From positions 1-45,336 of the IMG/VR virus record IMGVR_UViG_3300012964_000015: a DNA stretch of 45,336 nucleotides; one strand, written 5' to 3'. A program made the position numbers and the translations under genes. The notes below the pieces were generated by a model. It was given only the letters and a program-made list of their open reading frames with translations. It was not told the origin of the DNA and did not search any database. Numbering within the stretch: position 1 is the stretch's first letter; each line of letters begins with the position of its first letter. Shown in pieces: positions 32,335 to 34,978 of this stretch. The stretch is from a virus.

Positions 32335-32437
32335 TGGTGCGACTGGAGAGACTTGAACTCTCATGCTATACTTGAACTCTCATGCTATAAGCGAGGGATT
32401 TTAAATCCCTCTTGTCTACCAATTCCACCACAATCGC
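32335..32437 (-). tRNA. tRNA-Leu(UAA) with internal duplication
   Basis: Acceptor GCGATTG/CAGTCGC, D-arm GTGGAATTGGTAGAC, anticodon stem-loop GAGGGA-TTTAAAA-TCCCTC, variable arm GCTTATAGC, T-arm GAGAG-TTCAAGT-CTCTC, discriminator A and encoded CCA (32335-32337). A perfect 19-base tandem duplication (32352-32389) covers part of the variable arm and the 5' half of the T-arm, making the gene 103 nt instead of 84. All other parts are canonical, so the copy without the repeat would be functional. UUA is a frequent codon in this AT-rich genome. Confidence 0.8.
32352..32389 (-). repeat. Perfect 19-bp tandem duplication inside tRNA-Leu
   Basis: CTTGAACTCTCATGCTATA occurs twice without a gap at 32352-32370 and 32371-32389. 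Removing one copy yields a normal tRNA. Either real replication slippage or an assembly artefact. Confidence 0.95.
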
Positions 32438-32461: not shown

Positions 32462-32490
32462 ATTATAACCTAAATTTTATACTCTGTCAA
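32462..32490 (-). promoter_or_regulatory. Consensus sigma-70 promoter for the tRNA genes
   Basis: On the minus strand TTGACA (32485-32490), 17 bases, TATAAT (32462-32467): both hexamers perfect. It starts RNA about 18 bases before tRNA-Leu, inside the 3' end of the polymerase C-terminal gene. It would give strong transcription of both tRNAs and the downstream recombination genes. Confidence 0.8.
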
Positions 32491-33188
32491 TTCTTTTTGA
32501 TTAATTCCTATTGAGACCTCACAAGTTAATGGGATATTAAATGAAACTCCAAAAAGCCTATTAAAATTAATAGGTATATCGTTGAACACGCTATGAAATA
32601 TTTCCACTGTCCTTCGTACCTCAGACTCCATAATGTCGCATACAATGCTGTCATGCACAGTATTGATAAGCACACCGTTAATATTAGCATCTCTAAACCT
32701 TTTCATAAATGATACACGAGCAATTGACATGAGGTCAGCGCCCAAACCCTGAACCGGGTAGTTTTTTATAATAGTTTCTGGAGCTTTTAATTCTCCTTTA
32801 TAATTTCTACCTAATTCAAATTTATAAATCCTACCAGTAGGCATAATTAATTGTCCATTTTGAATTGCCTCTTGTACAATTTTAATATGCCAATCACGAA
32901 GACCAGTATATTTATTATAGAAAGCATCAATTACTTTTTGCCAATACTTCTCTGATGAACTAACACTAGAGAAGTCAGGGTCATTAGCATAAGCATAAGC
33001 ACTCCCTCCATACATTAATCTAAATACAAATATTTTTGCAATTAATCTTGATGGTAATCCAAATGCTTTTTGATTAAGACTATGTTGATCTACTCTGTCA
33101 ATAATCTCTTGTATTGCTACTTTATCTTGAGATAAATATGCTCCTACAACCCACTCAAGAGGGCCTTGGCATCACAATTGATAATCAA
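32470..33188 (-). CDS. DNA polymerase, family A, C-terminal part (split gene, frameshifted)
   Basis: Carries motif A (INCDAKA, then LEWVVGAYLSQDK), motif B (R-LIA-K-IFV-F-RLM-YGG) and motif C (INTVHDSIVCDI), so it supplies palm and fingers. A TTG start at 33188 overlaps the upstream stop (TTGA), ten bases after AGGAGG. As written, two extra bases at 33159-33162 (CTCT instead of CT) shift the frame after DAKA: the TTG frame stops within nine codons, and the frame of motif B has no start before ATG 33015, which lies after motifs A and B. So an active polymerase needs a frameshift, or the sequence has an error. F in place of T7 Tyr526 predicts low dideoxynucleotide uptake. Confidence 0.8.
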
Positions 33189-33211
33189 GGCACGGTAACC
33201 TCCTCTTGTGG
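33151..33211 (-). promoter_or_regulatory. 61-nt quasi-palindrome covering start and frameshift of polymerase C-terminal gene
   Basis: On the minus strand CCAC-AAGAGG (33202-33211) pairs with CCTCTT-GA-GTGG (33151-33162), GCCTTG (33186-33191) with CAAGGC (33163-33168), and ATCA with TGAT around ATTG (33171-33182), about 20 bp in all. The structure holds part of the AGGAGG ribosome binding site, the TTG start and the extra CT. It may control translation, stimulate frameshifting, or have produced the insertion through template switching. Confidence 0.55.
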
Positions 33212-33418
33212 ACTAGTAGCCTCAAGTTCTTGTTGTTCACAATATTCATTAATTTGCTCATTCCAAGAAGCATTAAGTTCCTTAAGAATTAGGTGAGCAT
33301 ATAAAAGCATATCTTCAGAGATATATCCGGGACGTTGTGGTTCAAAGACATAAAATCCATCACATTCCATATAAACACATTTCATTACCTCTTCTCTTAA
33401 TTCCTTATTAATTATCAT
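33185..33418 (-). CDS. Small phage protein inserted within the polymerase locus, 77 aa
   Basis: ATG at 33418 overlaps the previous stop (ATGA); the TGA at 33185 overlaps the TTG start of the polymerase C-terminal part. The residues DGFYVFEPQRPGYISEDMLLYAHLILKELNASWNEQINEY match a widespread small phage family ('DG.Y.w.P...GG.ls...L..IadeLd.lN..Wd.qi..Y'), so it is a genuine gene and not an intron artefact. Function unknown. Confidence 0.65.
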   Translation of the reverse strand: MIINKELREEVMKCVYMECDGFYVFEPQRPGYISEDMLLYAHLILKELNASWNEQINEYCEQQELEATSPQEEVTVP

Positions 33419-33588
33419 TTAAACTTCTCTATATAGTAATCAATTGTATCTATTGCATCTACTAGTTCTGTCTTAAGTATAGCAAGTTCTTTTGGGTCAC
33501 ACAAACCTAAATCCATACTAGTACTATTATTTGAAATATCCACATTAATATAATTCTTACCTACATGACGAAAAAAGATATTAAGCAT
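33415..33588 (-). CDS. Small protein inserted within the polymerase locus, 57 aa
   Basis: ATG at 33588 overlaps the end of the polymerase N-terminal gene by eight bases; GGAG seven bases upstream lies within that gene. The stop overlaps the next ATG (ATGA). Charged and helical in its second half (KELAILKTELVDAIDTIDYYIEKFK). No known family. It forms the first half of the two-gene insertion. Confidence 0.55.
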   Translation of the reverse strand: MLNIFFRHVGKNYINVDISNNSTSMDLGLCDPKELAILKTELVDAIDTIDYYIEKFK

Positions 33589-34735
33589 ATACACTCTCCA
33601 TAAAAACCTTAGTTATTGGATCTACATTCTGTAAATTTGGTTTACTACTACTAAGCCTTCCAGTAATTGCAACACATTGATTAAGAACACCATGTAACAT
33701 ATTATGATCCCACTTCATTGTCTTAATTAATTCACTGTATCCAATTAAATATGTACCACGTAATTTCTCAAGTTCTGAATATCTAGTAAGTAGATCAATA
33801 ATTACTTTAGCAGTTTTATTTAATTTTAAACTACGTAATACTGTATCATTTACTTTCCAATATTCTTGACTACCTTCTGGTTTCTTTACTTCAGTTCCTT
33901 TAAGAGGTTCAATAAGACGAGGTAAAGGATATTCTTTAATAATATTCTTATACTTTACCTGCCCCTTCTTTTCTCCTGATTTAAATACTCCAATAGGTAT
34001 TTTATCGTCCAAAAGGATATTCCCACCATAAAGAAGAACAGAAACGTGGTCATTGCTATTAAGATTAATGGGAATACCATTAGTATATTTAGTAAGTTCT
34101 TTGTAAATTGAATCAAGTTCAATCTGTATTCCTTCTGCATATTTTATTGCTTTTTCTGATGCAAAGTATATTCCATTATACTCCATTTCTTCAAGTACTA
34201 AAAGATCGGCACATTGTAATCTAAATAATGGCATAAGACCATTTGATTGAAATTGTGTTAATTGTCTTTCATATACTTGCTGTGTTAAGATTAAATCTTG
34301 GGCTAGGTAGTCAGATAGAATATCTCTTGGAATCATATCTGTATCAATACCATTAGCCCAATATTCATTTTTAACTATGTCTAATTTCTTAGGGAATCCA
34401 TATTTCTCTGCTGCTTCATCAAGTGATGGGTATTTATTCTGCTGGTGACTCAATAAGAATTCAGCAAGTTGGGTACACCAGACTTTTATGTTTGAGACAT
34501 TCACCCCTATTTTCCTAATCCAATGAATGTCAAACTTAGCATTATGGGCAATAAATAGATTACCTTCTAAAATAGACTGAATTACTTGTATATCTTTTTC
34601 TGTTGGATAATAGAATAAGTACTTTTCTTTTGTATCTACATCAAGAATTCCAACCACTACAATTTTATTTGTCCTATCAAAGACATTCCCTTTGTTACTT
34701 ATAGTACATTCAATATCACAGATTAATTTTCTCAT
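33581..34735 (-). CDS. DNA polymerase, family A, N-terminal part (3'-5' exonuclease and thumb)
   Basis: Exonuclease motif I ICDIECT (D7, E9), a second motif FIAHNAKFDIHWI, and third motif LSDYLAQDLILTQQVY, then the thumb and the conserved GRLSSSKPNLQNV. It ends KVFMESVYA, just before the strand that leads to motif A, and stops at 33581. The continuation is found 390 bases downstream (YRALIINCDAKA). Together the parts give a T7-type replicative polymerase (384 + about 238 residues). The ATG overlaps the stop of the phosphoesterase remnant. Confidence 0.85.
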   Translation of the reverse strand: MRKLICDIECTISNKGNVFDRTNKIVVVGILDVDTKEKYLFYYPTEKDIQVIQSILEGNLFIAHNAKFDIHWIRKIGVNVSNIKVWCTQLAEFLLSHQQNKYPSLDEAAEKYGFPKKLDIVKNEYWANGIDTDMIPRDILSDYLAQDLILTQQVYERQLTQFQSNGLMPLFRLQCADLLVLEEMEYNGIYFASEKAIKYAEGIQIELDSIYKELTKYTNGIPINLNSNDHVSVLLYGGNILLDDKIPIGVFKSGEKKGQVKYKNIIKEYPLPRLIEPLKGTEVKKPEGSQEYWKVNDTVLRSLKLNKTAKVIIDLLTRYSELEKLRGTYLIGYSELIKTMKWDHNMLHGVLNQCVAITGRLSSSKPNLQNVDPITKVFMESVYA

Positions 34736-34824
34736 ACTGGAAATCTTTTTAATACTTCTAAATTTAGGAATGTAAGAATATTACTATGTCCAAAATGAGT
34801 ATCACTTATTAAGAATGTCTTCAT
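34732..34824 (-). pseudogene. Truncated calcineurin-like metallophosphoesterase remnant, 30 codons
   Basis: Translation begins MKTFLISDTHFGHSNILTF, the canonical N-terminal strand and D-x-H metal-binding motif of phage metallophosphoesterases, but stops after 30 codons, where relatives run for 150-200 residues and need further GD, GNH and H motifs. The frame ends in an ATGA overlap with the polymerase start. Most of the gene has been deleted; a functional product is unlikely. Confidence 0.7.
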
Positions 34825-34978
34825 AATATTTTTGTCTTTCTTCTTGTGTAGCATAGAAATACCATGCTGGGGGTAATACCCATAAATTAATTGCTGGAAG
34901 ATTAATGTCTGGATATGTTATTACTATTCGTACTTTAGGTGTTTCTTTTCTTTCATTATTTTTCTGTAGCATGTCCAT
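34802..34978 (-). CDS. Small protein overlapping the lysozyme gene, 58 aa
   Basis: ATG at 34978 (or 34972), TGA at 34802-34804. The 5' end overlaps the lysozyme gene by 55 bases and the 3' end overlaps the phosphoesterase remnant. Residues LPAINLWVLPPAWYFYATQEERQKYYEDI look protein-like (aromatic- and Pro-rich core, charged helix) but match no family I know. Confidence 0.4.
   Translation of the reverse strand: MDMLQKNNERKETPKVRIVITYPDINLPAINLWVLPPAWYFYATQEERQKYYEDILNK

Follow-up and report, generated by a model that had tools for sequence, protein, structure and literature searches.

Several described phage systems bear on the locus reported here. The closest ones are the Methylophilales phages MEP401 and MEP402, two Zobellviridae members whose family A DNA polymerase shows the same split, for which an intron was suggested by the authors (PMC10580990). 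The division of the polymerase is itself thereby already known, although the initial annotation of the present DNA took it as unusual. In phage T4, gene 39/60 was split by an endonuclease, and protection from cutting is the role assumed for the insert that the ribosome bypasses (PMC5009743, PMC2988022). Besides, synthetic "stop-hops" have been described in which matched codons flank a stop, 9 nt being read as one amino acid, and no natural stop-hop was known according to a 2016 review (PMC5009743). T4 gene 60 and these synthetic constructs have so far been the main bacterial models of hopping.

The DNA analysed here, called the window, is the whole stretch of 45,336 nucleotides of the viral metagenomic contig IMGVR_UViG_3300012964_000015. 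Its phage belongs to a group related to the Zobellviridae, and its polymerase is of the split Zobellviridae type (MEP401-like), divided between SRY and the motif A strand. The polymerase locus comprises the following features:

33581..34735, minus strand: N gene, encoding the 3'-5' exonuclease and the thumb/palm part of a family A DNA polymerase (ORF; Pfam DNA_pol_A_exo1 and DNA_pol_A; PHROG DNA polymerase).
33415..33594, minus strand: seam ORF of 59 aa from GTG or 57 aa from ATG, without family match, a singleton among seam ORFs.
33185..33418, minus strand: seam ORF of 77 aa, without family match.
33199..33204, minus strand: AGGAGG, the Shine-Dalgarno sequence of the C gene.
33144..33188, minus strand: 5' piece of the C gene in its starting frame, carrying the motif A catalytic Asp.
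32470..33159, minus strand: 3' piece of the C gene, from LEWVVGAYL to the stop, with the O helix, motif C (HDS) and the remaining palm and fingers.
33157..33161, minus strand: +2 nt lesion within motif A, the proposed take-off CTC (33161-33159) overlapping the proposed landing CTT (33159-33157).

In line with the initial annotation, the polymerase is divided just before motif A into two genes, each of which matches Pfam DNA_pol_A, and the N gene stops at 33581 after KVFMESVYA (C-terminus ITGRLSSSKPNLQNVDPITKVFMESVYA), directly ahead of motif A, while coding for the remaining palm and fingers restarts about 400 bases past its end. Motifs A, B and C are present, motif A being whole only if a surplus of 2 nt is skipped. 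The window contains no single continuous polymerase gene and no further DNA_pol_A match beyond the two halves, and a near-identity DNA search with the region gave no match in phage records. Two overlapping small genes do lie between the halves, although the first, announced as 57 aa long, reaches 59 aa from its GTG. The assignment of the 77-aa ORF to a known small phage family is not supported, as it has no Pfam or PHROG match and no relative in viral contigs; the 59-aa ORF has no Pfam or PHROG match either, and the search for both genes in related phages returned none in the viral contigs, in PHROG or among the survey seam ORFs. A relationship with the 77-aa ORF of MEP401 was also considered and rejected. 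The 77-aa ORF of the window ends in codons (SPQEE) that fall on the ribosome-binding site of its C gene and are shared with MW202697.

Two further observations concern the surroundings of the locus. At 34732-34854 (minus strand), immediately ahead of the N gene, only the start of a metallophosphoesterase-like gene remains, truncated to 40 aa (ISDTHFGHSNILTFLN), and since contig L007 has a full-length gene of this type, a deletion seems to have occurred in the window. At 32338-32437 (minus strand) lies a tRNA-Leu gene of 100 nt with a 19-nt tandem duplication (ttgaactctcatgctatac twice), which ARAGORN misses; L007 and MW202697 have an ordinary tRNA-Leu(TAA) of 84-85 nt at this place, and the tRNA-Leu of the window may be broken.

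The start signals attributed to the C gene, namely the AGGAGG and a TTGA stop-start overlap (TTG at 33186-33188), are indeed seen. However, the C-terminal part is not simply rebuilt from this TTG, as had been proposed, because the frame is broken inside motif A. More precisely, the TTG frame (TTG ATT ATC AAT TGT GAT GCC AAG GCC CTC TTG AGT GGG TTG TAG) reads MIINCDAKALLSGL and then a stop, ending at 33144 without ever reaching LEWVVGAYL, and the frame of LEWVVGAYL has a stop at 33172-33174 and no ATG, GTG or TTG until M-YGGSAY at 33015, which lies downstream of the catalytic Asp and hence leaves no usable start ahead of motif A. Compared with in-frame relatives such as L006 (GATGCGAAAGCCCTTGAATGG), the window has 2 nt in surplus inside motif A, at the junction of GAT GCC AAG GCC CT and CTTGAG (CCCTCTTGAG in the window versus CCCTTGAA in L006). 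A frameshift known from a single contig could be an assembly error, that of the window included, and a CT duplication is a plausible slip in a metagenomic contig; the real C gene would then run from TTG through motif A, and only the known split would be left. Such a sequencing or assembly error is nevertheless distinctly improbable, given that the nearest relative, MW202697, is lesioned at the same codons and that contig L278 shows the same layout (GCCTTG..AATTGTGATGCCAAGGCTCTTTAGCTTGAG) with a lesion of 6 nt.

The distribution of the split was assessed by searching viral contigs and phage records and then applying a profile, which gave 132 unique contigs with an assessable motif A. All of them have two genes at the seam and none has a joined polymerase gene (0/132); in the tree, all sampled split contigs fall on one side of a 98/94 branch, and the outgroup rows opposite are mostly single-gene. 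Since no joined form occurs among these contigs and all lie on one side of a supported branch, the split is, judged from these sequences, old and general in this phage group, and not recent as first proposed; the intact form sought in related phages was encountered as a single gene only in the outgroup. In the group, the N gene ends near SRY, while an ATG placed five codons ahead of the catalytic Asp usually opens the C gene; on the Klenow polymerase, this beginning of the C gene maps about five residues before D705. As for the in-frame coding (GGYRA) noticed upstream of the TTG, it is present in the window, but the recent insertion deduced from it does not agree with a split that is general in 132 contigs; in-frame GGY codons upstream of the start are found in the window, L106, L136 and L126 and in 0/120 relatives with intact motif A, and may be relic coding or merely Shine-Dalgarno sequence. 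Two variants of the seam deserve mention. In Vibrio phage ICP2 (L018) and VP41s3 (L019), the split lies about ten residues further upstream (LQNISN and stop, then MSDIKRCIISRF...) and looks like a separate event; the ICP2 annotation joins the polymerase across an HNH-like ORF. In L007 (1989-2702), the N gene is 83% identical to that of the window and the end of the C gene is similar, while the tract from motif A on is of a different type, a replacement that suggests recombination centred on the seam.

Across the survey, the two genes may overlap by a few bases or lie as much as 3.6 kb apart, and the seam contents are unrelated: nothing at all, endonucleases, an R67-type reductase, a methyltransferase stretch or a family of small acidic proteins. 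In many relatives the polymerase genes overlap or are adjacent, so that there is nothing to splice, and in MW202796 (L014, 1424-6893) a stretch of 3.6 kb holding a cytosine methyltransferase, a stomatin-like gene and further genes separates the halves. Such unrelated contents and such a distance give the seam little resemblance to an intron, which touches the question raised in the MEP401 paper. Phage polymerase genes often carry group I introns, and the C gene of L006 has one further downstream; still, removal of the 390-base stretch from an RNA, as suggested for MEP401/402, is extremely improbable here, as Rfam at gathering and permissive thresholds gives no intron in the seam of the window and in those of 15 relatives, the window holds no Rfam group I structure with exons in register, and excision of the 390 bases would leave the 2-nt shift unmended. 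A gene fractured with split inteins is not supported either: in most loci the N gene stops only a few residues from SRY, and even the longest N extension seen, about 27-28 residues, is too short for an intein half.

Several seams and C genes of relatives hold features of their own. A family of 43-46 survey seam ORFs (e.g. that of L015, gp14 of MEP401), mostly of about 55-80 aa and often acidic, might assist the split enzyme as an accessory factor. An R67-type dihydrofolate reductase gene occupies the MW202697 seam (L013, 2350-2556), and a similar-looking reductase-like ORF lies just upstream of the N gene in L006. In the latter, the group I intron (RF00028, 3620-3985) breaks the C gene before YGGSAY; an HNH gene is found at this very position in L005 (3449-3973), and the C gene of L057, L070, L071 and L072 is apparently interrupted before YGGSAY too.

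In most contigs (120 intact relatives), the C gene is in frame through D-x-K-x-L-E. Lesions of -1, +1, +2, +4, +7 and, with an in-frame stop, +6 are found in 12 contigs from the survey and three from a pattern scan, i.e. in at least 14 besides the window; a further pattern scan gave 20 hits, the polymerase being matched only by two already known contigs. The lesions are the following:

Window: +2, CTC TTG AG.
MW202697: +1.
L036/L136, L161 and L162: +4, identical in different samples, CTTTCTTGAG.
L106: +6, CTG TAA CTG.
L147: +6, CTT TAG CTA, then GAG.
L143: +6, CTT TAG CTC.
L278: +6, CTT TAG CTT.
L296: +6, CTA TAG CTA.
L294: +6, CTT TAG CTG.
L297: +6, CTT TAA CTG.
L176: +2, CTC TAG AG.
L164: -1.
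L126: +7.

In nine surveyed contigs, the seam contains a free-standing endonuclease gene of about 150 aa (PHROG 3322, the second PHROG match being the endonuclease VII family), the carriers being L036/L136, L161, L162, L106, L147, L143, L164 and L176, plus L005, whose motif A is intact. A lesion is present in 8/9 contigs with the endonuclease versus 4/123 without it (Fisher, 2.3e-9), a p-value that is optimistic because some contigs are related and thus not fully independent. The endonuclease gene is absent from the window seam, which has a lesion without it, as have MW202697, L278 and L294; the window could have lost the endonuclease, or never have had it and have inherited only the lesion, either reading being allowed. 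Among solved structures, none matches the endonuclease by sequence, and the central DHDH flanked by CX2-4C/CX2C of the F-CphI (DHHRN) family is not found in its alignment, which shows SIDR...GYxKxN.

The organization of the mobile unit is best seen in L161, which corresponds to L049 plus a cassette inserted inside the motif A codons, the flanks being 97% (N) and 98% (C) identical at the nucleotide level. At its 5' end, the cassette has a relic of the old C start with a promoter-like TTGACT, 17 nt, TATACT (read by eye), while its 3' end supplies a fresh ribosome-binding site, re-creates the C start and includes the lesion. In the same line, the HNH-like ORF of L297 starts with MAIVNADAKS, a relic of the C start.

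By analogy with T4 mobA and gene 60, we consider it probable that a homing-endonuclease and mini-bypass cassette is superimposed here on an anciently split polymerase. In this model, the family A polymerase gene was split long ago just upstream of motif A, its two chains presumably being translated separately and then associating, and the seam with the adjacent motif A would serve as a landing place for free-standing endonuclease genes. A recipient allele would carry the endonuclease gene, followed downstream by a C start that is formed anew with its own ribosome-binding site, together with a very small insertion or indel at the L/E codon of motif A (D-A-K-x-L/E-W). This mini-insertion would probably spoil the cleavage site, and the peptidyl-tRNA on a Leu (or Lys) codon may re-pair with a match 1, 2, 4, 6 or 7 nt downstream or, in one allele, 1 nt upstream. 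The window carries a +2 form (CTC to CTT), in which TTG and no stop follows CTC in the A site, and coding would resume at GAG (33156).

The codons around the lesions were examined in the ten lesions found without the codon-matching pattern; L294, L296 and L297 were not counted, because the pattern that found them demanded Leu-stop-Leu. Each of the ten (10/10) has an insert near the target that breaks the frame, along with matching take-off and landing codons. Each time, the tRNA on a Leu, Lys or Glu codon need re-pair only once, with a codon agreeing in the first two bases, to give back the exact protein, whereas in a simulation of random lesions at the motif A site exact restoration had a probability of 0.08-0.10 each. 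The match is only loose in L126 (GAA/GAC), and it is automatic for the CT of the window and the A of MW202697, since these are tandem duplications; Leu-stop-Leu would likewise arise if a re-created start shared a single Leu codon with the native gene. Besides, gene 60 has a stimulatory structure and a long nascent peptide, whereas the take-off here would occur as early as codon 9 or 10 of the C gene and the gap between the matched codons is too short for an internal hairpin, and L005 has the endonuclease yet keeps motif A intact. The exact restoration and the T4 precedent together lead us to read the lesions as putative target-protecting mini-bypasses. A phage-encoded hopping tRNA was considered and rejected, the downstream tRNA-Leu(TAA) being also found in the lesion-free L007, and, in the retrieved loci of the remaining lesioned relatives that were scanned, ARAGORN detected no tRNA. 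Plain stop readthrough or single-base frameshifting, with extra motif A residues and no matched-codon hop, would join the frames in the +6 alleles, and TCT TGA in L136 and MW202697 is a possible shifty stop. This way past the lesion is very improbable, as readthrough would mend none of the -1, +1, +2, +4 and +7 alleles and would place extra residues between the catalytic Asp and the motif A Glu (Klenow D705 and E710), whose spacing is kept in 120/120 intact relatives.

The lesioned genes are moreover well conserved. L294 and L297 have a stop at the same site (TAG and TAA, respectively), their C-parts being 75% identical in amino acids with saturated dS and a dN of 0.19, and the window and MW202697 are sisters, both lesioned, with 76% identity, saturated dS and a dN of 0.20; in both pairs the downstream ORF is still open and conserved. 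In the L136 group, the lesioned C-parts have a dN/dS of about 0.03-0.13 where estimable, a value that does not date the lesions because the cassette transfer is recent. Recoding of TAG or TAA as sense was rejected, those codons ending other long genes in the lesioned contigs, across which all three stop codons terminate long genes. An unreadable catalytic motif in well-kept genes calls for a way past the lesion. If, beside the ancient split, the lesions were inactivating scars of homing-endonuclease cleavage and repair, the genomes would be defective or would use the polymerase of a co-infecting phage or of the host. The lesions do occupy what appears to be the insertion target and go together with the endonuclease, some may be young because the cassette moved recently in some pairs (L161 versus L049), and PMC9860041 describes some cyanopodoviruses without an identifiable DNA polymerase gene. 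Scars are nonetheless unlikely in the face of an identical +4 lesion in four contigs from different samples, of low dN/dS in the lesioned C-parts, and of pairs that keep a stop at one site or are both lesioned while their downstream ORF stays conserved over saturated synonymous divergence.

On balance, we thus favour mobile endonuclease and mini-bypass cassettes in the catalytic motif of a two-chain polymerase, with natural stop-hops (+6) and minimal hops (-1, +1, +2, +4) that would have been selected repeatedly as uncuttable forms leaving the protein unchanged. As far as the literature searched shows, the frame break, its recurrence with the endonuclease and the conserved motif A stops are undescribed. 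If ribosomes skip the inserts, these alleles would form a natural short-hop set of about 12 distinct members, including conserved in-frame stop codons, and bypassing would be a recurrent answer to homing endonucleases. In addition, a two-chain replicative polymerase with its catalytic aspartate close to a new N-terminus would be open to testing.

Compared with known systems, MEP401 and MEP402 share with the window the enzyme, the seam and a small ORF in between, but their motif A is in frame and neither lesion nor endonuclease was reported. The two-chain polymerase tied to a homing endonuclease also recalls the split gene 43 of Aeromonas phages 25 and 44RR (PMC2988022), although the latter belongs to family B, has another break point and no motif lesion described. 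In the F-CphI collaborative homing of cyanophage S-PM2 (PMC6083498), a free-standing endonuclease likewise lies beside its target and a separate sequence blocks self-cleavage; the blocker is there a group I intron in psbA, whereas it would here be a bypassed mini-insert, and the present endonuclease lacks DHDH. CTT TAG CTA, CTT TAG CTC, CTG TAA CTG and CTA TAG CTA have exactly the layout of the synthetic stop-hops, except that the lesions are natural. Finally, as with T4 mobA and the 50-nt bypass of gene 39/60, an essential replication gene is split with, in some relatives though not in the window, an endonuclease gene at the split, and the small untranslated T4 insert, lying just downstream, is skipped at matched codons; the insert is here of 1-7 nt (or -1), lies in a family A catalytic motif and exists in many independent forms, for which bypass is predicted.
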